Source: a virus
Virus record (IMG/VR): IMGVR_UViG_3300029787_004217
Coordinates: 1-24,026 of that record
DNA: 24,026 nucleotides
Direction: 5' to 3' (one strand)
The position numbers and the translations under genes are program-made. The notes beneath the pieces were generated by a model that was not told where the DNA came from, did no database searches, and saw only the letters and a program-made list of their open reading frames with translations. Shown one piece after another: positions 429 to 11,862 of this stretch (the stretch's first letter is position 1; each line of letters begins with the position of its first letter).

Positions 429-1207
429 TGGAACAATATGTAAACGCAGGTTCAGTATTCATAGAAGAGATTCCACCTCCAGTAGCCAAGAAGATGATTA
501 TTGAAAAACACTACACTCACGCATTCAGTATGTGTAGATATGCTTTGGGTATTTATTATGTTGGTGAGAAAGACCACAAGTTCTATGATGAAAAGGAAAA
601 GAAACTAATTGGTTGTATGACTTATGGATATCCAGTTGGTCGTTCGGCAATCAAGTCTATGATACCTACATTGGAAAAGGAAGAAGTATTAGAGTTGACA
701 AGACTATACATTGATGACGGATACGGAAAGAACATTGAGTCTTTGAGTATGGGTAAATCATTTAAATGGTTGAAACAAAATGCCAGCAACATCAAAATGT
801 TACTCAGTTATGCAGACCCTGAACAAATGCACTTGGGAACAATCTATCAGGCAACGAATTGGTTGTATCAAGATTGTCGTGATATACAATTAATGCCAAA
901 CTATTCAGTATCATTAGGGGAACCACACAAATGGATACATAGTCGTACGGTATTTTCAAGATGGGGTAGTCATAATGTAGAACATTTGAAAAAACACATA
1001 GGACAAACATTTTATAGGAAACGAGAAGCACCTAAACACAGATATTTATATTTCTTGGGTTCATCAAGAGAAAACAAAAAGATGAGAACACAATTGAAAC
1101 ACGATTGTAAAGCATACCCAAAGAACAAAAAAGAATTCATACCACCAATTGAAAAATATGAAGTGGAGAATACAAACAGAAAAAAATCTATGGAAAAATA
1201 TTTTTGA
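428..1207 (+). CDS. Mom-like DNA-modification protein (GNAT-type acyltransferase fold)
   Basis: 259 residues with a GTG start that overlaps the gp43 stop by one base; AATAGG lies upstream. It resembles the phage Mom family, which makes the N6-carbamoylmethyl-type adenine modification in phage Mu. Matching features are IEKHYTHAF near residue 25, a CMTYGYPVGRSA turn, an ELTRLYIDDGYGKN strand, and Y128-A-D-P followed by HLGTIYQATNWLYQD. The final third is basic (many Lys and Arg), as expected of a DNA-binding protein. It ends in SMEKYF, almost the same as the polymerase tail SMNRFF, which suggests sliding-clamp binding. It lies between the polymerase and clamp genes, so expression with the replisome is likely. 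The assignment rests on motif recall; another GNAT-like function is possible. Confidence 0.68.
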   Translation: MEQYVNAGSVFIEEIPPPVAKKMIIEKHYTHAFSMCRYALGIYYVGEKDHKFYDEKEKKLIGCMTYGYPVGRSAIKSMIPTLEKEEVLELTRLYIDDGYGKNIESLSMGKSFKWLKQNASNIKMLLSYADPEQMHLGTIYQATNWLYQDCRDIQLMPNYSVSLGEPHKWIHSRTVFSRWGSHNVEHLKKHIGQTFYRKREAPKHRYLYFLGSSRENKKMRTQLKHDCKAYPKNKKEFIPPIEKYEVENTNRKKSMEKYF

Positions 1208-1238
1208 TTTTCGGATTATTAAATGATATTTATAGATA
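1207..1238 (+). promoter_or_regulatory. Putative promoter upstream of gp45
   Basis: This gap holds a 27-base element (1207-1233) that matches an element upstream of gp62 (11383-11409) at 24 of 27 positions. Its left part reads TTTTCGGATTATTAAA and its right part TGATATTTAT. It ends 24 bases before the gp45 ATG, and a good ribosome binding site, AGGAG, lies at 1247-1251. Position and conservation suggest a phage promoter, but no transcription start can be read from sequence. The right part includes TATTTATA, the reverse complement of the T4 late box TATAAATA. Confidence 0.5.
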
Positions 1239-1256
1239 AACCAAATAGGAGTTACA

Positions 1257-1988
1257 ATGAACAAATCTCAATTAACTAATTTCATTAACAAATACACATT
1301 AGGTGGAGAAATTAAATCTACTAAATGGGTTTCTAATGGTGATAGTTTAGCAACAAGATTTATCTCAGGTGATAAGTCAGTTGTCGGTAAAGTAGTTTTA
1401 AGTAAATTTAAACACTTAGAACCTTGTGAACTTGGAGTATATAATACTGCACAATTAGGTTCACTACTATCAGTATTAGGTGATGATGTTGATGTAAGTT
1501 TATCACGAGCAGGTGATAAGTTTATTTCTATGGAATTAGAAGATAGCAAAAGAAAAACAAAATCTAAATATATGTTGAGTGATTTGTCAGTTATACCGAC
1601 ACCACCAGAACTGAAGAATCTACCAGATTCATTTGAGTTAGGTATCAAGGTAGACGCACATTTCATCAATACATTTATTAGTGGTAAAGGTGCTTTATCA
1701 GAAGCAGAAACTTTTACGATATTAACAGATAACGACAAAACAAGCATTGTGATTGGATATGCAAGTATCGCATCTAATCGTGTTACGATTCCAGTTGAAA
1801 CTACAAAGTTCAAAATGATGGAACCAATCTCATTCAATGCTAATATGTTCGCATCTATTCTACAATCAAATAAAGATTGTGAAAGTGCAACATTAGAAGT
1901 TAGTTCACAAGGGTTATCAAGAATTAAATTCGCAATTGACAATTACGATTCAGAATATTTCTTGGTATCAACACAAGCAGTTAACTAA
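1257..1988 (+). CDS. gp45: Sliding clamp gp45
   Basis: A 243-residue DNA polymerase processivity factor of the T4 gp45 family. The protein forms a trimeric ring that is loaded by gp44/gp62 and holds the polymerase on DNA. In T4 the clamp also activates late transcription. The sequence has the family's length and two-lobe pattern of alternating beta strands: an N-terminal SQLTNFINKYTLGG segment, a central LSDLSVIPTPPELKNLPD linker, and a second lobe with TFTILTDNDKTSIVIGY. T4 gp45 is about 228 residues. ATG 1257 follows AGGAG at a suitable distance. The stop overlaps the gp44 ATG by one base. The conserved element upstream marks the start of a transcription unit. Confidence 0.9.
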   Translation: MNKSQLTNFINKYTLGGEIKSTKWVSNGDSLATRFISGDKSVVGKVVLSKFKHLEPCELGVYNTAQLGSLLSVLGDDVDVSLSRAGDKFISMELEDSKRKTKSKYMLSDLSVIPTPPELKNLPDSFELGIKVDAHFINTFISGKGALSEAETFTILTDNDKTSIVIGYASIASNRVTIPVETTKFKMMEPISFNANMFASILQSNKDCESATLEVSSQGLSRIKFAIDNYDSEYFLVSTQAVN

Positions 1989-2911
1989 TGGAAAGTCTAA
2001 AACATAGTTTATGGGTAGAGAAATATCGCCCTAACGAGTTAGACAATTATATCGGTAATGACCATTTAAAATCAAAGGTGTCGGTGTATCTTGAATCAGG
2101 AGATATACCACATCTATTGTTATTCGGTAGAGCAGGAACAGGTAAAACTACCCTTGCTAAACTATTAATCAATAACATTGATTGTGATTACCTTTATATA
2201 AACGCATCTGATGAGAATTCAGTAGATGTAGTTCGTGAGAAAGTCAAGAACTTCGCATCAACATTAGGTTTCAAAGATATGAAAGTCATAATCTTGGACG
2301 AGTGTGATTACATTACACCAAACGCTCAAGCAGCACTTCGTAATCTTATGGAAACTTTCTCTAAGAATTGTCGTTTTATATTAACTTGTAATTATGTGGA
2401 ACGAATTATTGACCCGATACAAAGTCGTTGTCAGTCTTTCCAAATAGTTCCACCTGATAGAAAACAAGTAGCACAACATTTGGCAAATATATTGACAAAT
2501 GAAAGTGTAGAGTATGATGTTAAAGACATAGCTACCATTGTAAATGGTGGTTATCCAGATATCAGACGAGTAATCAATGGTGCTCAAAGACAAGTTGTAA
2601 ACTCTCAATTAACAATTGATGAAAATACTATTGTTCAAAATGATTACAAAAATCAAGTGTTAGATATATTGAAAACACAAGATAAAAAGAATTCATTTAA
2701 AAACATTAGACAATTGTTAGCAGATTCAAAAGTAACAGACTTCTCTGATTTATTCAGATTGATGTTTGATACGGTTGATGATTGGGGAGCAGGACATATC
2801 GCTGAGTGTATATTGATTTTAAGTAAATACCAACAATCAGATGCGGTAGTAGTTGATAAAGAAATCAACATTATGGCTATGTTTGTAGAAATCATAGGGA
2901 GTATAAAATGA
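1988..2911 (+). CDS. gp44: Clamp loader large subunit gp44 (AAA+ ATPase)
   Basis: A 307-residue AAA+ ATPase of the RFC/gp44 family. With gp62 it opens and closes the sliding clamp on primed DNA. Visible motifs are the N-terminal WVEKYRP box, Walker A GRAGTGKT (residues 47-54), Walker B ILDECD with D104 and E105, and the RFC-type SRC motif (S146-R147-C148) that supplies the arginine finger to the neighbouring subunit. Length matches T4 gp44 (about 319). The gene overlaps gp45 by one base and the next gene by ATGA. In T4, gene 62 follows directly; here a zinc-ribbon gene takes that place and gp62 lies at 11431. Confidence 0.95.
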   Translation: MESLKHSLWVEKYRPNELDNYIGNDHLKSKVSVYLESGDIPHLLLFGRAGTGKTTLAKLLINNIDCDYLYINASDENSVDVVREKVKNFASTLGFKDMKVIILDECDYITPNAQAALRNLMETFSKNCRFILTCNYVERIIDPIQSRCQSFQIVPPDRKQVAQHLANILTNESVEYDVKDIATIVNGGYPDIRRVINGAQRQVVNSQLTIDENTIVQNDYKNQVLDILKTQDKKNSFKNIRQLLADSKVTDFSDLFRLMFDTVDDWGAGHIAECILILSKYQQSDAVVVDKEINIMAMFVEIIGSIK

Positions 2912-3174
2912 GTAGTCATCCAAAAGGAATGCCACCAAGAGAAGACGGACTTCAAATAGATATATCAAAAGCAGATACTATTGTTTGTGAGGAGTGTGGA
3001 AACGCATCTTTTATACCGGCTTTCTTTTTAAAAAAGGTATCGGCACTGATGTCACCAACAGGACAAGAAGCTATTATTCCAATACAAGTTTATAGTTGTG
3101 GAAATTGTGGAACCGTACCGAGAAAATTATTAGAATCATCAGGTATGACAGGTGGACAAGAAATTAGTAAATAG
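2908..3174 (+). CDS. Small zinc-ribbon protein, function unknown
   Basis: An 88-residue protein with a two-knuckle zinc ribbon, C27-x2-C30 and C64-x2-C67, separated by about 33 residues. It starts in an ATGA overlap with the end of gp44, so the two are probably translationally coupled and made in related amounts. The N-terminus is proline-rich (HPKGMPPRED). It bears no resemblance to gp62, although it occupies the position of gene 62 in T4. A role as a replisome or RNA-polymerase accessory factor would suit the context, but nothing in the sequence proves it. Confidence 0.72.
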   Translation: MSSHPKGMPPREDGLQIDISKADTIVCEECGNASFIPAFFLKKVSALMSPTGQEAIIPIQVYSCGNCGTVPRKLLESSGMTGGQEISK

Positions 3175-3958
3175 AGTTCATTACAATGTAGATAAATTCT
3201 ACAACGAAAATTATAGAGTAGTTCTAAGAGAACAAACTGAAAATAATTTTCCAAAAGGTGAACACGGACTAAAACTCTATCAACACAAAGATGATGAGGG
3301 AAATACTATTTACACTAACGACCAAGGTGAGTATGTTTATAATCATCACCAAGCTTTAAATATTTACCAAAACAATATGGGTAGATTTGAGGGTGGTAGA
3401 CAACACGACCCAATCTATAATGATGAAAACGCAAAATATCAAATCTACACCTTTGGTTGTAGTTGGACTTATGGTTGGGATATTCAACAACAACAAACCT
3501 TTACTCATTTACTCGGAGACGAAAACACAGCAGTTCATAATTATGGAGCAGGTGGAACAGGTTTAGACTTCGCAGTCAAGACATTATCTGAAGTTTACAT
3601 ACCAGAATCAAGACGACAAATATTTATTATCACAATGCCACACTTTTTTAGAAGAACTTGGTTTGATGATAATGGTGTTGTGTTGAGGTCTTGGCAGGTA
3701 AAAGAACAAACCGATGTAAATGAGTATAATCATTATTTTAATTTTTTACACAATTATGAATTACTTAATAGATTTGTAGGTCGTGATAAAATTATATGGG
3801 GAACTTGGGAAAATGACATACCGAGAGATAAATTTGATGTGGTGTTTGAGTGTATTGACCATACAACAGATGGATTACATCCAGGTCCAAAAGCTCATAA
3901 GAAATATGCTAGTGAACTAAAGAAAATACTTAAAGAAAAATATGAATCCAAACGATAA
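3152..3958 (+). CDS. SGNH/GDSL-type hydrolase-like protein
   Basis: A 268-residue protein with the blocks of an SGNH hydrolase: FGCSWTYG with nucleophile candidate S104, NYGAGGTG (residues 130-137) as the Gly/Asn block, and DGLHPGPKAH with D240 and H243 as the acid and base. Family members are esterases or deacylases acting on lipids, acetylated sugars or acyl groups. The GTG start at 3152 overlaps the zinc-ribbon gene by 23 bases; the earliest good hydrolase motif lies about 100 residues in, so the N-terminal 90 residues are extra and unassigned. There is no clear signal peptide, so it probably acts in the cytoplasm or on the virion. It opens the accessory block between gp44 and gp62. Its substrate is unknown. 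Confidence 0.72.
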   Translation: MDKKLVNRVHYNVDKFYNENYRVVLREQTENNFPKGEHGLKLYQHKDDEGNTIYTNDQGEYVYNHHQALNIYQNNMGRFEGGRQHDPIYNDENAKYQIYTFGCSWTYGWDIQQQQTFTHLLGDENTAVHNYGAGGTGLDFAVKTLSEVYIPESRRQIFIITMPHFFRRTWFDDNGVVLRSWQVKEQTDVNEYNHYFNFLHNYELLNRFVGRDKIIWGTWENDIPRDKFDVVFECIDHTTDGLHPGPKAHKKYASELKKILKEKYESKR

Positions 3959-4598
3959 GAAGTGGAAAGAAAAAAAATTAAATCATTATGATAACAAAAT
4001 ATTATTTGATGATAATGAAAGAAATTTTGTAATGGGAGATTGGGAAGAGCCGGTTATGAAAGCTCATGCGGAAATAACTTGTCGTAATGGTGGGGATATT
4101 TTAGAGATTGGATTTGGTATGGGTATTAGTGCTGATTACATTCAACAACAAGATATTAAATCACATACAATTATTGAGTTGAATGATGAGATACACGAGA
4201 AAGCAGTTGAATGGTCAAAAGATAAACCAAATACAAAAATAATTCACGGAGATTGGAAAACTATTAAATTAGAGAAGCAGTTTGATGCTATATTTTATGA
4301 CGCGGGTGAGCAAGCACCTTCCGATACAATAGCTTTATCTTTATTACCTTTGTATATATTAAGATTTTGTAAAGTTGGGACAATAGTTACTATGTTTAAT
4401 CATATGTGGGAACCAACTACAACTTGGCACAAAAGATTTTTTACTGACAAACAAATAAAGTTTTATGAGGTAGACGCGAGAGTGCCAGATGGTAGGGAAA
4501 ATGGTTACAATGAGGAACACGAAATATATTACTTACCAGAGTGGGTGGTGGCAGAAGACGACACAGAGGAAAAATACAGAAAATGTATTACAAGATAG
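3942..4598 (+). CDS. SAM-dependent methyltransferase resembling GAMT/RMT2
   Basis: 218 residues, class I SAM-methyltransferase fold. Motif I is ILEIGFGMG (residues 53-61), and IIELND (E79, N81, D82) follows, where the acidic residue would bind the SAM ribose. Then come GDWKTI and FDAIFYDAG. This combination, with an upstream DWEEPVMKAHAEI segment, resembles guanidinoacetate N-methyltransferase and the arginine delta-N-methyltransferase RMT2 (consensus W..P.M......GG.vLEvGFGM...A......IE.ND) more than typical phage DNA methyltransferases. No DPPY-type DNA methyltransferase motif is seen. It overlaps the hydrolase gene by 17 bases. The substrate could be a guanidino or amino group on a small molecule or protein. 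Confidence 0.75.
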   Translation: MNPNDKKWKEKKLNHYDNKILFDDNERNFVMGDWEEPVMKAHAEITCRNGGDILEIGFGMGISADYIQQQDIKSHTIIELNDEIHEKAVEWSKDKPNTKIIHGDWKTIKLEKQFDAIFYDAGEQAPSDTIALSLLPLYILRFCKVGTIVTMFNHMWEPTTTWHKRFFTDKQIKFYEVDARVPDGRENGYNEEHEIYYLPEWVVAEDDTEEKYRKCITR

Positions 4599-5023
4599 AT
4601 TTAAGTAATTACGAACCACGAGAAGTTCCAAAATTTCAAGAGTTCAATAATTGGGAACAGATGAAATGGAACGAGGTTCAAACAGATATTTTAAGAGAGT
4701 TAAATGAATTCAAGGACTCATTCGGTAAAGATTGGGAAGAGTGGAACTTATCTGATTTAAAACACAGACTACAAAATAACTGGTCGTTTTATTTAGTTGA
4801 GGGTGGTTGGTGTTTTATTGATTGGAATAGGCAATATCCTTATCTGGCAAATCGTTATGTGTTTCCAGAAAATAGAAATAAAGGATTGGGTAGTGATTTA
4901 GTGTGGTTAAGGTGTAATGAAATTAAACAACAAGGATACGATACTGCTATGATTAAGTTAGAAGATTGGAATACGCCAGCACTATCGGTTATGAAAGAAA
5001 AAATGTTTACTAAAATGAACTAA
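4583..5023 (+). CDS. GNAT-family acetyltransferase
   Basis: 146 residues from ATG 4583, which has AGAGGA at 4565-4570 upstream. A longer reading frame from 4541 only adds residues read in another frame of the methyltransferase gene, so I reject it. The acetyl-CoA binding motif is clear: YVFPENRNKGLGSDLVWLR matches the GNAT motif A pattern (R/Q-x-x-G-x-G/A), followed by a GYDTAMIKLEDWNTPALSVMKEKMF region typical of the C-terminal part of GNATs. The N-terminal 60 residues are rich in Trp and Glu and not assigned. The substrate is unknown; the neighbours are a methyltransferase and a processing-type protein. Confidence 0.72.
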   Translation: MYYKIDLSNYEPREVPKFQEFNNWEQMKWNEVQTDILRELNEFKDSFGKDWEEWNLSDLKHRLQNNWSFYLVEGGWCFIDWNRQYPYLANRYVFPENRNKGLGSDLVWLRCNEIKQQGYDTAMIKLEDWNTPALSVMKEKMFTKMN

Positions 5024-5041
5024 ATTGATATTTATAAGTAG
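5022..5041 (+). promoter_or_regulatory. Putative promoter upstream of the Hint-protein gene
   Basis: The 27-base gap before the ATG at 5051 contains TTGATATTTAT at 5025-5035, matching the right half of the elements upstream of gp45 and gp62. The left half of that longer element is not evident, so this may be a weaker or differently timed promoter. There is no strong Shine-Dalgarno sequence (only AGAGAAAA) between the element and the ATG. The role is inferred. Confidence 0.35.
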
Positions 5042-5050
5042 AGAAAAATT

Positions 5051-6856
5051 ATGTCAGTACAAACAAAAGTAGAAAATTATTTAAATTATATCACAGGAAG
5101 TGCAGGTGGTTGGCCAACAAATACTAATATTGGTATAGTGGGTGGAATAGATTATATCATTGAAAGTGGTTCAGACGATGTATACTTCCACGAGATGAAC
5201 ACTGCTTGTGGTGTTTATGGTTCTTATTCAACACAATTAACAATATTTAATAAAATATCAGATTATGCAAATGAACAAGGTTGCTCAACTGCGTATGTTT
5301 ATGGACAAAGTGACTCACGAAAAAGAAATCCATCATCAATACAAGAACCTTTAATTAGTTCAAGTTTTGCACGACACAATATTTCAGTTAATTTTGAGTA
5401 TAATGATAACACATCAGTAACCTATTTTTCACAAAGAGGACAAAATCAATACACAGGTAGCTTTCATTTATTTATGCAAACACCTTGGTATAGTGATGAT
5501 AAATTATTAGAAATTGTTAGTGGTTCATTTAATAAAAATACATTTAGAACAATTTTATCAAGTTCACCAGTCAGTTCTTCTTTGACACCAGTGTTTAATA
5601 CAGGTTCATTCTCAACATCAAATCTATATCATCCAGATTTTGTTGTAAAGGATGCGAGTCAAGACGGAACTGCACACGAGGGAACAGGATTAGAATTTTA
5701 CAAATATATTTCAGCGAATCCAACTTATCAAAATGCAGTCAATAGTGGTTCGTTGATAGAAACTTTTATTGTTCCGAGTGGTAGTATAGTTGGTGGGGTT
5801 GGTTATGCAAGCACAAGAAAAATGAATTACTTGATGACACCAGATAAACAGATATTACTTGAAGACAAAGATGAGTTACCATTAATTGTAGCACCAAAAT
5901 TTGTTTTGATGTCAGGAAAAGATAGATGGGTACACGCAAATCAAATGATGTATTCAAGTGCAAGTGGTAGTTTGATTCAAATGTATGATAACTCTACGAA
6001 GCAAATCCAAGATATAGAGGTTGGTGATGTTGTAAAATCATATAAACCAGTTGGATTACCTGATGAAAGTTATAAGTATGATTGGTTAGATTATTCTACG
6101 ACAGATTTAAGTGGTTCAGTGGCTTCTGGTTCAGTCGTTGTGAGAACTATGGAGTATGACCACTATGGACATATTTTAGTTAATGGTTCAATAAAGATAG
6201 CCATTATGAATCAGTCAATGATGAAAGGTGCCAGATATTTCTTAAAACAAGGAGACACTTGGAGTTTTGCAAAACCAGACGAAATATCAGTGGGGGATTA
6301 TTTATTTGATAAGGATGGAAATGAAGTGGAAGTAACATCAGTTTCAGAAGTTGGAGAAAATTTAACTTGGCATTCTTTAGATGTTGAGGACATTGATACA
6401 TATTTTACATCAGAGATACTAGTTCACAACATCCCACCAAGAAAATGTTTCACAGGTGATACGATGATTACTTTGGCAGACGGAACTTATGAAAATATAC
6501 AAAAGATTAAGCCAGGAACAGAAATTAAAACTTATAATGAAGAAACTGGTAAATTACAAAATTCAGTTGTGGGTGAGATTACAAAAATCAGACACGACAA
6601 TTTAGTCAAGTATAAATTTAATGACAACACAGAAATTAAAGTAACAGACGACCACCCGTTTTATGTAGAGGGTCAAGGTTATAAAGCACCATTAGAGGTT
6701 GGTGATGTAACTCTAAATGATAAATTAAGTAAAATAAAAATGGTTAGTGTGGAAGAACTTGACTTAAATGAAATCACATATAATATAGATAACACAAATA
6801 ATAGCAATAATTATTTTGCAAATAGGGTTTTAGTTTCTGATGAGTCTGATACATAA
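5051..6856 (+). CDS. Large protein with two C-terminal Hint (intein/Hedgehog-type) modules
   Basis: 601 residues. Residues 1-300 are unassigned and rich in Ser, Gly and Thr (repeated SGS and GSF), like virion structural proteins. A segment at about 34-55 ending in FHEMNT slightly recalls an ATP-grasp acidic strand, but this is weak. Residues about 303-460 form a first Hint module ending in SEILVHN (H459-N460), with no Cys at its start and no clear TxxH box. A second Hint module begins at C466 (CFTGDTMITLADGTYENIQ), has a good TxxH box (T532-x-x-H535, then PF) and a final NNYFANRVLVSD, but lacks the terminal His-Asn. Hint modules perform N-S acyl shifts for splicing or autocleavage. The gene overlaps the first oxygenase by 17 bases. 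Confidence 0.75.
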   Translation: MSVQTKVENYLNYITGSAGGWPTNTNIGIVGGIDYIIESGSDDVYFHEMNTACGVYGSYSTQLTIFNKISDYANEQGCSTAYVYGQSDSRKRNPSSIQEPLISSSFARHNISVNFEYNDNTSVTYFSQRGQNQYTGSFHLFMQTPWYSDDKLLEIVSGSFNKNTFRTILSSSPVSSSLTPVFNTGSFSTSNLYHPDFVVKDASQDGTAHEGTGLEFYKYISANPTYQNAVNSGSLIETFIVPSGSIVGGVGYASTRKMNYLMTPDKQILLEDKDELPLIVAPKFVLMSGKDRWVHANQMMYSSASGSLIQMYDNSTKQIQDIEVGDVVKSYKPVGLPDESYKYDWLDYSTTDLSGSVASGSVVVRTMEYDHYGHILVNGSIKIAIMNQSMMKGARYFLKQGDTWSFAKPDEISVGDYLFDKDGNEVEVTSVSEVGENLTWHSLDVEDIDTYFTSEILVHNIPPRKCFTGDTMITLADGTYENIQKIKPGTEIKTYNEETGKLQNSVVGEITKIRHDNLVKYKFNDNTEIKVTDDHPFYVEGQGYKAPLEVGDVTLNDKLSKIKMVSVEELDLNEITYNIDNTNNSNNYFANRVLVSDESDT

Positions 6857-7397
6857 CAACAATTTTAGATGGTATCATTACAGAGATAATTTCTTATCTC
6901 AAAAACAATGTTCTAAATTAGTGGAGGAGATAGACAACGCCTCAGAGAAACCAGAAGATAGATTTTGGTCTGATTCTAAAATTGAGAAAGCGGTTAAACT
7001 TAATGATATTAAGGTGTGTGATGAATCATTAGTTGATAAATATTGGAAACTTTTTAAGTTAGTTAATGTTAATTACAATTTTCACATAACAGGAATTCAA
7101 AGAAATGGTGTTTATGGTAAAAGATATTCAACAGATTGGACAGAGGACGAATTTCCACACACAGACTTTTCAGCAGGAGAGGGAAAGTATGTTGATAGCA
7201 CTACAAAATTTACTTGTGTGACTTATCTAAATGATGATATGGAAGGTGGGGAACTACAAGTTACGAATGACAAAATACCAGTGGAAGTTGGAAGAGCAAT
7301 AATATTTCCTTCTTTTACTAATCACAAAGTTATGCAATTCTATAATAAAAATAGATATGTTTTAGTATGTTTTGCAGAGGGGAATACTTTTAAATGA
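6840..7397 (+). CDS. 2-oxoglutarate/Fe(II) oxygenase, copy A1
   Basis: 185 residues of the prolyl-hydroxylase-like double-stranded beta-helix family. These enzymes hydroxylate or oxidise a substrate with O2, 2-oxoglutarate and Fe(II). The iron ligands are H107 and D109 (PHTDF) and the distal H162 (NHKV); R172 (NRYVL) would bind 2-oxoglutarate. GGEL lies between them as expected. It is the first of four such genes in a row and is closer to the third (shared NNNF(R/K)W opening, GI.RN and LNDD.EGGE segments) than to the second. It overlaps the Hint gene by 17 bases and the next gene by ATGA. The substrate is unknown. Confidence 0.88.
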   Translation: MSLIHNNNFRWYHYRDNFLSQKQCSKLVEEIDNASEKPEDRFWSDSKIEKAVKLNDIKVCDESLVDKYWKLFKLVNVNYNFHITGIQRNGVYGKRYSTDWTEDEFPHTDFSAGEGKYVDSTTKFTCVTYLNDDMEGGELQVTNDKIPVEVGRAIIFPSFTNHKVMQFYNKNRYVLVCFAEGNTFK

Positions 7398-8011
7398 AAT
7401 ATAACGACGATTTTAAATTTTCAATTCAAATACCTAATTTTCTTTCAGAAGAAAAGTGTGATGAATTAAAAAAAGATATAATGGAATCAGAACAAGATGT
7501 AATTGGTTGTGTTGGAGATGAAAACGGAACAGCGATATTACCAGAAATTAGAAAAACTAATGAGTGGTATTTGTTTGACCAACCTGACAATGAATTTAGA
7601 CCAGACAAAACCAACAAAGATTGGAAATGGTTACAAGATAAAATGTTTCAAATGGTGAACATAGTTAACGATAGTGTTTTTCATTTTGATGTTGATGGGT
7701 GTGATGATGAATTAAAACTGATAGAATATCAGGATGGTGGTTTTTATGGTTGGCACACAGACTTTAACGCAGGTAGTTGTTCCAATAGAAAGATTGTAGG
7801 AATTGTTCAACTTACGGACCCAAGTGAATATGAGGGTGGAGATGTTCAATTCGGTATCCAAGATAAAGATACAAAAGAGTGGTATACAATGGAAAAGAAA
7901 AAGGGTTCATTGACATTATTTCCGGCATTTCTATGCCATAATGTAACACCAGTCACAAAAGGTAAACGATATGTAATTCAAGAATTATTTGTCGGAGACC
8001 ATTTCAGATAG
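7394..8011 (+). CDS. 2-oxoglutarate/Fe(II) oxygenase, copy B1 (PKHD-type)
   Basis: 205 residues, same oxygenase fold as its neighbours. Ligands are H121 and D123 (WHTDF), the distal H182 (CHNV) and R192 (KRYV). The stretch EYEGGDVQFG and TLFPAFLCHNVTPVTKGKRY is typical of PKHD hydroxylases (PiuC-like) common in marine phages. It is more similar to copy B2 at 8579 than to A1 or A2: both have FGI(Q/T)DK, LFPAFL or IFPAFL, and H.VTPVTKG(K/R)RY. It begins in an ATGA overlap with A1. The known family includes protein and free amino-acid hydroxylases, so the target cannot be read from sequence. Confidence 0.88.
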   Translation: MKYNDDFKFSIQIPNFLSEEKCDELKKDIMESEQDVIGCVGDENGTAILPEIRKTNEWYLFDQPDNEFRPDKTNKDWKWLQDKMFQMVNIVNDSVFHFDVDGCDDELKLIEYQDGGFYGWHTDFNAGSCSNRKIVGIVQLTDPSEYEGGDVQFGIQDKDTKEWYTMEKKKGSLTLFPAFLCHNVTPVTKGKRYVIQELFVGDHFR

Positions 8012-8018
8012 GATAAAT

Positions 8019-8582
8019 ATGTATAAACCAGTAGATATGGATAATTTGAAGTTAAATAATAATTTCAAATGGGTAATAACAAAAGATAACTTCTTTTCCG
8101 AAGAAGAGTGCGAATATATAATAGATAAGGTTGATAACTATTCTGAAAGAAAAAAAACAAAATACTTTGAAGCAGATGATAGTATTTGTTTATTAAACAT
8201 TAATAAAAACAACGAACAAAAATACTTAGATAAATTTTGGGAAGCTATATCAATAGCAAATCAAATTCACTACAAATATGATATTCAAGGTATTTATAGA
8301 AATAGAATACAATGTCATAGATATGATGTAGGAGATTGGTATAATCCACACTCAGATTTTTATCCAACAGACCAGTATAGTTCACTAAAATTAACTTGTA
8401 TTGTATCATTAAATGATGATTATGAGGGTGGAGAGTTTAAATTGTTTGACGGAAAAACCATAGAACAAAAACCAGGTAGATTAATTATTCATCCGGCATT
8501 TGCAGGACATCAAATTACCGAGATAACAAAAGGTAAAAGATATTCTTGTGTTGCTTGGGCAGTAGGGGATACTTTCGTATGA
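8019..8582 (+). CDS. 2-oxoglutarate/Fe(II) oxygenase, copy A2
   Basis: 187 residues from ATG 8019, with ATAGGA at 8008-8013 as ribosome binding site. A TTG start at 7989 would read back into copy B1 without conserved sequence and is rejected. Ligands are H111 and D113 (PHSDF; here Ser replaces the Thr of the other copies), the distal H164 (GHQI) and R174 (KRYS). The opening NNNFKW and the GIYRNR and LNDDYEGGEFKLF segments pair it with copy A1. All catalytic residues are present, so it is likely to be active. The gene ends in an ATGA overlap with B2. Confidence 0.88.
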   Translation: MYKPVDMDNLKLNNNFKWVITKDNFFSEEECEYIIDKVDNYSERKKTKYFEADDSICLLNINKNNEQKYLDKFWEAISIANQIHYKYDIQGIYRNRIQCHRYDVGDWYNPHSDFYPTDQYSSLKLTCIVSLNDDYEGGEFKLFDGKTIEQKPGRLIIHPAFAGHQITEITKGKRYSCVAWAVGDTFV

Positions 8583-9148
8583 TACAAAATGATAACTTTA
8601 AATTCGTAGTTCATAGGGAGGACTTTCTATCATTGAGTCAATGTCAGAAGCTAATGAGGTATTTAGAAACAGGTGAACCAACTGAATCAGAACTCGCCGG
8701 TAATTACGACGAAAATATATTGAACAAAGAAGTTCGTGATAATAAAGAAGTCACGATTAATAATGATAAACTTAACAACAAACTACAAATGGTATTTGAA
8801 TTGTCTAATCAATCTATATGGAAATACAATATAGAAGAAATGGAAAAGGTAAAAATACTACGATATGAAAATGGTGGTAAATATAAATGGCATACTGATT
8901 GTGGTTCACGAGAAACTTCATTAAGAAAACTAACCGCTATTATTCAATTATCAGATGAAACAAAATATGAGGGTGGTAATTTAGAATTTGGAATCACAGA
9001 TAAATCAGGTAAAAATAATTACACCGCACCAAGAACACGAGGAAGTATTACAATCTTTCCAGCGTTCTTATCACATAGAGTTACACCAGTAACAAAAGGT
9101 AGAAGATATTCATTGATAACTTGGATGTTAGGAGATTGTTTTGTATGA
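8579..9148 (+). CDS. 2-oxoglutarate/Fe(II) oxygenase, copy B2
   Basis: 189 residues from the ATG at 8579, which overlaps the A2 stop (ATGA). A longer frame from 8546 would lie inside A2 and is rejected. Ligands are H105 and D107 (WHTDC), the distal H166 (SHRV) and R176 (GRRYS). The segments LSDETKYEGGNLEFGITDK and IFPAFLSHRVTPVTKGRRY align with B1. The last codons overlap the radical SAM gene (ATGA). Four intact oxygenase genes in succession without any damaged copy suggest that each is kept by selection, perhaps for different positions or substrates. Confidence 0.88.
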   Translation: MIQNDNFKFVVHREDFLSLSQCQKLMRYLETGEPTESELAGNYDENILNKEVRDNKEVTINNDKLNNKLQMVFELSNQSIWKYNIEEMEKVKILRYENGGKYKWHTDCGSRETSLRKLTAIIQLSDETKYEGGNLEFGITDKSGKNNYTAPRTRGSITIFPAFLSHRVTPVTKGRRYSLITWMLGDCFV

Positions 9149-11373
9149 AAATAGCACTATGTATATGTCCACAATGGTCAATTGAATCACCTTCATACGC
9201 ATTAGGCGTATTAAAGTCCGAAATAAATAATCCAAAAGTAGAAGTAAAACAATTTGATATAAATATGGATAGTTCAATTTATATGAGAGATGTTGATTAT
9301 GAGTTTTGGTATGATTGGGGTAATGATAAACCTTGGAATTCTGACAATAACTTTAAAGAATATGTTCTACCAAGATTACAAGATTTTTGGAAACCTTACA
9401 TTGAGGAATTATCCACTTATGATGTTGTAACTTTCACAAACTATACTTCTAATATTATGTCAACAGACTACATAGCTAGGTATGTTAAAGAAAAGAATCC
9501 AAATGTTCAAATATGGTATGGTGGACCTTATTCTTGGTATTCTGAGTATGGTGGTCTTGTTGAACAAGGTGGTATGCAAAATAATGTAAAAAGAATATTT
9601 GATGTTCATCATAGAGAATTTGTTGATGTTGCTTGTAATAGTTCTGATGGAGAAACTGTAATTGGTAATTTAGTAGATTGTTATGTGAGAGACGGACATT
9701 ATGAAAATGTAAAAGGAATATGGCGTTGGGATAAAATGAAACCAAGTTTTCCAACATTTATGAAAGCAGGTAGAAGTGGTAGAACAGCAGTTTTTAATGG
9801 GAGAACAATACCTTTAAATCTAAATGATACAAAAACACCAATGTGGGACGAGGATATACTTGAAAACTATTTAACATTATGTAAAATAAGAACAGAAGAC
9901 CCAACATTTTTTGGAGAGGAAGCACAAGCTTTTACAGAGGAGCATATGTTAGAAAACGAGGACGGATATGACCCAAGAGAAATGAAAGGTGCAATTCCAG
10001 GTAGAAATAGAAACTCAATGATACCAGAAATGGACAAAACTATAACCGGTGAAAAGGCATTCGCAGGTGAATTATCAAGAGACGGACATAGTAATTTGTA
10101 TAGTGATTTTGCAGTCTTACCAATTCAAGGGTCAAGAGGTTGTACTTTTAAATGCACATTTTGTGCGGAAACAAGATTGTATAGATATAAAAGTCCAGAG
10201 AAAATAATTGAGCAAATGAAACATATGATTGATAAAACTGGTATTTATAAGTTTTGGTTTACAGATTCATTGATAAATGGTTCTATGAAATTATTTAGTA
10301 AGTTTGTGGAAGAATTAGAGTGTGAAATAAAGAATGGTAGATTACCGGAAAATATTGAGTGGGGTGGACATTTTAGAACACATAAAAAGTTAGATGGTGA
10401 TTTACTATCAAGGGCGAACAACGCCGGACTAAACCATATGAATGTTGGATTTGAAAGTGGTGTTCCAAAGATATTAGGTTTAATGGAAAAGGGACAATTG
10501 CCAGAACAGATTAGTGATTTTTTAAAGGGTTGTTATGAAAGTAAAGCTAAGTTTCAAGGTAATTGGTTACCAGGTTTCCCAAAAGAAAACCATATGGACT
10601 TTTTAGTTGGTTCTAAATGGTTGTATGATAATGCAAAATACTTCAGAGCTAATGGTGAAATAACTTTATTACAATCAACGGACATATATGACAACACACC
10701 ATTAGATGTTTACAAAGATGAGTTTGATGTTTCAAAAGAAAACTCATTTCTTAATGATTGGGTTAGTAATGATAACAAGAACTTTTTATTAGTTAGACAT
10801 CTTCGTTCTTTTTTATATGAAGCACAAGTTAATATATTTGAAATCTTTTATCGTAGAAGAATATGGAACAACCCACTAAAAATAAACAAACTTAAGGTTG
10901 ACTTAAAAGATAAAGTTGATAGTATACCATTTGAGTCTGAATTCTTAAATTCAAAAAATTTCAGAAATCCGAAAAAAATAATTGAAAATGAAATAATACT
11001 TACAATTAAATCTTTCGTTTGGAATGTTATTAACGTCAGTAAAAAAGTAGAACTTGACATAGAAGTGAAAGATAAGTTTTTAACTTACAGATGTAAAAAT
11101 TCATTTTCAAATATTCATATTAAATTGGATTCAGTTGGAGATGATTTTGATTTAATCATTGATTATGATGTTAGAATTGACAAAGAAGATAAAAATCTTT
11201 CAAATAAATACACAGATGATTTAGACTTTATCATAAAGGATAAACTAGTTATCAGTGGTAATGTAAATGACTACAAGTCAAATGATAAAGTAAAAGAATT
11301 ATACAACGATACTATGGATTACAAGAAGTATAAGATAAATCTAAAAAGAACCGAAATGACAAGTCAATACTAA
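9145..11373 (+). CDS. B12-binding-type radical SAM protein
   Basis: 742 residues from ATG 9145 (ATGA overlap with B2); a TTG start at 9121 would sit inside the oxygenase. The radical SAM signature C333-TFK-C337-TF-C340 would bind a 4Fe-4S cluster, and AETR follows. Residues 1-200 look like the cobalamin-binding Rossmann domain of the BchE/P-methylase group (YDVVTFTNYTSN, IWYGGPYSW, DGETVIGNLV), but no DxHxxG B12-base motif is seen, so cobalamin use is uncertain. Residues about 200-320 are an extra insert and about 530-742 a Lys-rich, unassigned C-terminal region. Such enzymes methylate or rearrange unactivated carbons. It is the last gene of the accessory run; a conserved promoter-like element follows it. 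Confidence 0.85.
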   Translation: MKIALCICPQWSIESPSYALGVLKSEINNPKVEVKQFDINMDSSIYMRDVDYEFWYDWGNDKPWNSDNNFKEYVLPRLQDFWKPYIEELSTYDVVTFTNYTSNIMSTDYIARYVKEKNPNVQIWYGGPYSWYSEYGGLVEQGGMQNNVKRIFDVHHREFVDVACNSSDGETVIGNLVDCYVRDGHYENVKGIWRWDKMKPSFPTFMKAGRSGRTAVFNGRTIPLNLNDTKTPMWDEDILENYLTLCKIRTEDPTFFGEEAQAFTEEHMLENEDGYDPREMKGAIPGRNRNSMIPEMDKTITGEKAFAGELSRDGHSNLYSDFAVLPIQGSRGCTFKCTFCAETRLYRYKSPEKIIEQMKHMIDKTGIYKFWFTDSLINGSMKLFSKFVEELECEIKNGRLPENIEWGGHFRTHKKLDGDLLSRANNAGLNHMNVGFESGVPKILGLMEKGQLPEQISDFLKGCYESKAKFQGNWLPGFPKENHMDFLVGSKWLYDNAKYFRANGEITLLQSTDIYDNTPLDVYKDEFDVSKENSFLNDWVSNDNKNFLLVRHLRSFLYEAQVNIFEIFYRRRIWNNPLKINKLKVDLKDKVDSIPFESEFLNSKNFRNPKKIIENEIILTIKSFVWNVINVSKKVELDIEVKDKFLTYRCKNSFSNIHIKLDSVGDDFDLIIDYDVRIDKEDKNLSNKYTDDLDFIIKDKLVISGNVNDYKSNDKVKELYNDTMDYKKYKINLKRTEMTSQY

Positions 11374-11382
11374 ATAATTTAC

Positions 11383-11417
11383 ATTTTCAGATTATTAAAA
11401 GATACTTATTTATATCT
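11383..11417 (+). promoter_or_regulatory. Putative promoter upstream of gp62
   Basis: A 27-base element at 11383-11409 matches the one upstream of gp45 at 24 of 27 positions. Its left part is TTTTCAGATTATTAAA and its right part GATACTTAT. It ends 22 bases before the gp62 ATG, against 24 bases at gp45. The right end also forms a small dyad, AGATA (11400-11404) and TATCT (11413-11417), with an 8-base loop. Conservation outside coding sequence with equal spacing argues for a regulatory element; the polymerase or sigma factor that reads it is unknown. Confidence 0.5.
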
Positions 11418-11430
11418 AAGGTTATTCACT

Positions 11431-11862
11431 ATGAAAACAAAAACACTATTTGACCACATAAAACAAATTACTAATGTTCAAAACCAATTGTATTGGGACA
11501 ACATTACAGATGCGGACAAGAAAACTTGGTCCAATTATATGGTGCATAGGTTTTTATCAATGAAAGCAGAGTGGATAGAAGTTGTAAATGAAATACAACA
11601 ATATTGGGAATTGAAACCAAAATCAGTTTATCAATTCTACACCAATATACTACCAAGAGGAAATACATACTTAAGATATACTAAATCTAAGAAGAAATCC
11701 AAGATAGAAAAGTGGGCTATGGATATATTATGTGATTACTTTGAAGATAGTTCAGAAAATATTGAAAAAACGCTTGACATTATGGGTAAAGATGTTGTAT
11801 ATTCAATTATATCAAAGTATGGTGTAGATGAAAAACAACTAAAAAAAATATGGAGTAAGTAA
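11431..11862 (+). CDS. gp62: Clamp loader small subunit gp62
   Basis: 143 residues. It fits the reduced gp62 of marine T4-like phages: a W...D..KKTWSNYMVHRFLSM opening, a central Y.FY.NILPRG block, a Lys-rich KSKKKSKIEKWAMDIL stretch, and a C-terminal YGVDEKQLKKIW helix. gp62 joins four gp44 subunits to form the clamp loader and has no ATPase site, as here. T4 gp62 is about 187 residues, so this is the shorter form. It lies 8.5 kb from its partner gp44, with the accessory block between. It overlaps the next gene by one base. The family is highly divergent, so confidence is moderate. Confidence 0.7.
   Translation: MKTKTLFDHIKQITNVQNQLYWDNITDADKKTWSNYMVHRFLSMKAEWIEVVNEIQQYWELKPKSVYQFYTNILPRGNTYLRYTKSKKKSKIEKWAMDILCDYFEDSSENIEKTLDIMGKDVVYSIISKYGVDEKQLKKIWSK

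Follow-up and report, generated by a model that had tools for sequence, protein, structure and literature searches.

What does a phage protein do with two C-terminal Hint modules when each lacks exactly what the other keeps? The question is raised by a gene in the window, the whole stretch of DNA analysed here, which is a 24,026-base IMG/VR virus fragment carrying a T4-like phage gene set. A first-pass annotation had described a first module (M1) that retains the terminal His-Asn, a second (T) that retains Cys1 and a TxxH box, and a gap of five residues between them. H459-N460, C466, T532-H535 and the gap all lie where it had placed them (residue 301 begins at 5951), and the opposite losses are borne out by the motif counts among relatives, the Hint homology of both modules by sequence profiles and the predicted model. 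Sequencing error as the source of the pattern is excluded by intact orthologues, and a chance or one-off event by the fixation of the losses across all relatives. We computed the Hint homology of both modules, the polarity of their losses, the gain and loss of T and the selection acting on residues. Once made, the protein probably removes or activates its own end. The features of the locus are listed in Table 1.

Table 1. Features of the Hint-protein gene and its immediate neighbours (window coordinates).
Feature	Position	Strand	Remarks
Upstream neighbour, GNAT acetyltransferase	4541..5023	+	Likewise upstream in L150, L230 and L241, the three relatives whose genes were inspected one by one
Whole gene, 601 aa (N-terminal domain, M1, linker, T)	5051..6856	+	Open reading frame; orthologues found
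N-terminal domain, residues 1-297	5051..5941	+	D34-x13-E48-x-N50 motif, resembles D-Ala-D-Ala ligase (ATP-grasp) metal site
Hint module M1, residues 302-460	5954..6430	+	Ends H459-N460, without Cys1 and TxxH; from profile and model strand order
H459-N460 of M1	6425..6430	+	Invariant 90/90; codons vary synonymously
Linker I461-P-P-R-K465	6431..6445	+	Position matches the C-terminal tail (IPPK, LPPK or IPQK, then stop) of short relatives
Hint module T, residues 466-601	6446..6853	+	C466 and TxxH present; SDES in place of HN
C466, predicted nucleophile (Cys1) of T	6446..6448	+	Cys in 64/64; intein_Nterm match begins here
T532-D-D-H535, block-B TxxH of T	6644..6655	+	64/64
C-terminus SDESDT and stop	6836..6856	+	HN position of other Hint modules; overlapped by the start of the following gene (ATG at 6840)
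Downstream gene, 2OG-Fe(II) oxygenase	6840..7397	+	17-base overlap with T

Both modules belong to the Hint superfamily

T is a member of the Hint superfamily by profile, by fold and by its Cys1 and block-B TxxH. In Pfam it passed the cut-offs for PT-HINT (7.5e-10) and Vint (4e-8) and stayed slightly below those of Intein_splicing and Hint; the NCBIfam model intein_Nterm scored 37.9 bits (cut-off 24.5), with a match that begins exactly at residue 466. A full-length AlphaFold model built on 53 diverse rows reached a mean pLDDT of 82 and a pTM of 0.70 (with 23 close sequences the mean pLDDT was 54, and M1 and the N-terminal half were poor). Searching known folds with the full model gave only Hint/intein chains among the matches listed, and the aligned ranges reported all fall in T (464-600). 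The model of T matched 6y75_A, the BIL2 of Tetrahymena BUBL1, with a Z score of 22.2 (rmsd 1.4, 135 residues), followed by CthBIL4 (2lwy, Z 20.2) and Hedgehog (1at0, Z 18.8). Cys1 and TxxH are present in all 64 T modules found among relatives and the terminal His-Asn in none of them; the module is under purifying selection (median dN/dS 0.22). That T has neither His-Asn nor a C-extein, as the first reading held, is seen directly from the gene, which ends VLVSDES(DT) at the end of the Hint fold. In a search of 50,697 phage records, T was the only part of the protein with matches, which were distant inteins in isolated phages.

M1 belongs to the same superfamily by homology. The Pfam scan of the window protein gave no match above cut-off in M1; searched against solved Hint chains, its family profile matched BIL2 (6y75/6tmm) with an E value of about 5e-6, CthBIL4 (2lwy) with 3e-4 and 8w20 with 1e-3. 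Using hhalign, M1 aligned end to end with the intact modules A' (3.6e-9, 124 columns) and B (3.4e-6) of its own family and also with T (4.3e-5), against reversed controls that gave no E value better than 0.02. The succession of strands in the full-length model is alike in M1 and T. The predicted structure is thus in keeping with a Hint fold for residues 300-460, on which the earlier reading depended; the fold-search result covers T, and the fold of M1 is called from the profiles and the strand order of the model.

Among relatives, M1 shows Cys1 in 0 of 87, TxxH in 0 of 87 and HN in 87 of 87 modules. These counts require the end of M1, and the short-form regular expression was seeded on HN, so that an M1 without it would escape; HN is invariant as well in the homology-search alignments, which were not seeded on it. 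Position 1 is Ser in the window and Ser, Thr, Ile or Met across relatives. Ser302 was considered as an alternative nucleophile and rejected on account of the Ile or Met found there in 13 of the 87. M1 therefore has no N-terminal acyl-shift machinery, being without a Cys1/Ser1 nucleophile and without TxxH; cysteine is absent from window residues 300-460 altogether, and just 10 of 87 M1 modules have any. Its terminal dipeptide is written with mixed codons (His, CAT 59 and CAC 31; Asn, AAT 85 and AAC 5; n = 90) and is followed by Ile or Leu in 90 of 90. M1, too, is under purifying selection (median dN/dS 0.29). The strong conservation around HN could have a structural cause; cleavage after N460 is a candidate activity that the retained residues may permit. 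A match to PHROG 38766 ('virion structural protein') is confined to the M1 part. Neither M1 nor the N-terminal domain had relatives in the 50,697 phage records or in bacterial and archaeal genomes.

A family with one to four consecutive Hint modules

The family consists of T4-like phage proteins and was seen in environmental DNA only. Several hundred matches came from scans of viral contigs, with 90 distinct proteins that include the M1 end. Their architectures are M1 alone (19), M1+T (48), M1+A (3), M1+A' with or without T (3), M1+A+T (10), M1+A+B (3) and M1+A+B+T (4), two of these assignments being affected by a contig end (L114) or a frameshift (L085). Four consecutive Hint modules are found in L209 (898 aa) and in L246-L248. 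M1 always comes first and T, where present, always last, while the intact modules A, A' and B carry Cys1, TxxH and HN in 27 of 27 cases. Linkers measure 1-5 residues at the first position and mostly 1-8 further on, with no domain between modules. Short forms, 17 distinct proteins, stop right after M1 with HNLPPK (10), HNIPPK (4) or HNIPQK (3) directly before the stop codon; where these end HN-[IL]P[PQ]K, the long forms carry HN-[IL]Pxx(K/F/..)-Cys. The genuinely new element is a tandem array of variable length with fixed polarity, N-dead first, intact in the middle and usually C-dead last; in the literature covered, which is a part of the whole, we found no description of such tandem Hint/BIL arrays of variable number (1 to 4) on one protein.

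Two observations concern individual members. The frameshift in L085/L138 (same contig; 904-3063) ends T with ..NGITLRIGF, and the VLVSDESETE ending continues in another frame. The intact module A of L209 (464-568 aa) and of L211 (457-561 aa) scored above the Hint models against Pfam AXH (1e-28 and 2e-22), the Ataxin-1 and HBP1 module, which possibly reflects either a link or contamination between the AXH and Hint families.

Comparison with known Hint systems

A-type BILs retain His-Asn, and B-type BILs cleave at the N-terminal junction although they have no C-terminal motif (PMC7765530). T fits the B-type definition of intein motifs without a C-terminal His-Asn, an assignment made by this definition, and like these domains it would be expected to cleave at its N-junction. 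Unlike them, it forms the extreme C-terminus of the protein, with no C-extein, and is joined to an N-dead Hint module and sometimes further intact ones. The family's A, A' and B resemble A-type BILs such as CthBIL4 (2lwy) in having Cys1, TxxH, HN and, directly after HN, mostly a non-nucleophilic residue (Lys), but are arranged in tandem; M1 likewise ends HN, but without Cys1 or TxxH.

Neither M1 nor T is a class 1 intein, which combines Cys/Ser1, a C-terminal Asn and a +1 Cys/Ser/Thr in a single domain (PMC7664689): T has no C-terminal Asn and no C-extein, and M1 has no Cys1 and Ile or Leu at +1. Class 2 inteins proceed by direct attack of the +1 nucleophile and class 3 inteins use a W-C-T motif with a block-F Cys (PMC7664689); the +1 Ile/Leu and the rarity of cysteine set M1 apart from both.

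Tetrahymena BUBL provides T's closest solved structure among the matches listed and M1's closest sequence match (BIL2, 6y75/6tmm), and also has repeated BIL modules within one precursor. There, however, the BILs alternate with ubiquitin-like domains, whereas the phage modules follow one another directly after a single unrelated N-terminal domain, and no ubiquitin-like domains lie between them. The Hedgehog C-terminal autoprocessing domain (1at0) performs the N-to-S shift only and, as for T, needs no His-Asn; T differs in that no sterol-recognition region follows it, as the Hint fold and the protein both end at residue 601. PT-HINT, from polymorphic toxins, is T's best-scoring Pfam family, but in the phage protein no toxin domain follows the Hint module and the gene stops.

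T as a candidate N-cleaving cassette

We propose, with a probability of roughly 0.6, that T is an N-cleaving domain resembling B-type BILs, which forms a thioester between K465 and C466 and whose release leaves an end near that of the short forms, while M1 is fixed, N-dead and may cleave at N460. The steps of thioester formation, cleavage and fate of the C-terminus are modelled on known BIL chemistry. The protein would be a two-module member of a family with one to four C-terminal Hint (BIL) modules. M1 would be its permanent part, the N-side machinery gone, cutting at most after N460 through asparagine cyclisation, and T an accessory cassette that keeps the N-terminal half-reaction alone. C466, aided by T532 and H535, would attack the K465-C466 bond to give the thioester, and water or an amine or thiol would then resolve it, so that T is shed; formation of the thioester and release of T are what the cleavage of N-terminal junctions by B-type BILs without a C-terminal motif would lead one to expect. 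The mature end would read ...VHN-IPPRK, near the VHN-[IL]P[PQ]K that short relatives encode, or the protein would be passed on through this end to another molecule. The close likeness of the two ends suggests the short tail as the mature state, with T serving as a cassette that can be removed or that activates. In the first-pass annotation, such a thioester had been put forward as a way to release residues 1-465 or to join them to a nucleophile. That part stands as the most likely reaction, to go by the retention in T of all the residues needed; the parallel to Hedgehog offered with it is a loose one: the fold matches, but T ends where the Hint fold ends and has no sterol-recognition region. 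One point counts against the cleavage model: were T always cleaved immediately, the phage would be keeping 136 codons for a discarded product.

If the modules are active, the family would offer a natural series in which evolution has separated the half-reactions of protein splicing, useful for studying Hint modules that have been retired or restricted to one cleavage, and T4-like phages would be able to trim or activate the end of a protein with no protease involved. If they are inactive, another reason must be sought for the invariance of Cys1/TxxH and of HN across dozens of diverged relatives. Both Hint modules could be dead relics, M1 serving structure only and T-type cassettes being neutral or selfish passengers at a permissive gene end. 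Such a state would accord with the absence of N-terminal catalysis from every copy of M1, the lack of HN in T and the variation of module number at a single place. It is nevertheless improbable: catalytic residues would be the first to go in a dead module, yet none of the 64 T modules has lost Cys1 or TxxH, each of the 27 intact modules has all three motifs, and the dN/dS of T speaks against it as well.

The fate of the thioester leaves a second alternative. T might conjugate as Tetrahymena BUBL or Hedgehog do, passing the K465 thioester to an amine, thiol or lipid, so that residues 1-465 would be transferred through their IPPRK end to another molecule. BIL2 of BUBL1 reportedly attaches its N-terminal partner to lysines by an isopeptide bond without ATP (PMC8616854), and since BIL2 is the nearest structure to T among the matches listed, conjugation has to be considered beside hydrolysis; moreover, with no C-extein on T, a foreign nucleophile or water must complete the reaction. 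Hydrolysis would also fit, however, and the protein has no sterol-recognition region, attached ubiquitin-like domain or identified acceptor; we regard conjugation as unlikely.

Are the two losses coupled?

As read from the relatives' sequences, the losses in M1 and T are fixed yet uncoupled. The first-pass annotation had suggested that the two modules act as a split active site, which would join the His-Asn of M1 with the Cys1 and TxxH of T. The losses are indeed exactly complementary and fixed, and the modules only five residues apart, but the family argues otherwise. M1 retains HN in the 17 distinct short proteins that have neither T nor any other module. T is without HN even where one or two intact, HN-bearing modules separate it from M1. 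In a quick tree of the N-terminal domain, the presence of T changes at least six times on the same backbone, by gain or loss, while M1 never varies. In addition, gene overlap would account for the HN missing from T: the codons that follow its VLV hold the downstream gene's ATG (gATGag) in 64 of 64 cases, with the Asp codon always GAT, and this invariance raises the possibility that the SDES ending is kept for the downstream start and not for the protein. A shared site is therefore very unlikely. Also highly improbable is an array wired inwards, in which a C-side cut by M1 and an N-side cut by T would free the linker, a conserved and proline-rich peptide (IPPRK/IPPGK/LPPRK); were the freed Ile461 amine to attack the K465 thioester, a small cyclic peptide would form. 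The order M1-linker-T is that of laboratory split-intein cyclisation constructs (C-half, peptide, N-half), and such a product, if real, would be a phage peptide made naturally by Hint modules.

In the cases examined, the next gene overlapping T encodes a 2OG-Fe(II) oxygenase. A natural frameshift joining T to this oxygenase, whose frame encodes IHN, was considered and rejected, as the downstream product starts MSQKQNND or similar, without HN, in most relatives; no slippery site for it was seen.

N-terminal domain and gene neighbourhood

The D34-x13-E48-x-N50 motif (within residues 32-57, window 5144-5221) is invariant in the family alignment. NCBIfam Ddl models matched 7 of 35 members weakly (best 0.0055), and hhalign placed residues 31-57 against 254-279 of a Ddl profile (E 0.0076), a 26-residue match that covers the D..ExN stretch only. 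The motif lies near the N-terminal rather than the C-terminal end, so that an ATP-grasp fold would need circular permutation; a circularly permuted ATP-grasp domain, suggested by this short stretch of sequence, is a lead only. No family could be assigned to the domain with confidence: against solved structures, its profile matched antibody chains alone, and these weak matches were rejected as chance. In L230, a neighbouring 194-aa open reading frame (4924-5508) has a similar 'GYLTEINTN' motif followed by the same kind of pattern, and is possibly related to the N-terminal domain.

The genes of the window include those for a DNA polymerase (C-terminal part), a Mom-like DNA modification protein, a sliding clamp, the large and small clamp-loader subunits and an exonuclease; the best isolated-phage match of the clamp loader is just 42% identical. 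The Hint-protein gene sits in an island flanked by clamp-loader genes (1988-2911 and 11431-11862), preceded by the GNAT acetyltransferase and followed by four 2OG-Fe(II) oxygenases and a radical-SAM protein. This island (2911-11431) spans 8.5 kb between the gp44- and gp62-like clamp-loader genes and holds, besides the Hint protein, a methyltransferase, the GNAT protein, the four oxygenases in tandem and the radical-SAM protein. The Mom-like protein is encoded at 428-1207, between the DNA polymerase and the sliding clamp (Pfam Mom 2.7e-47, PHROG 1384).
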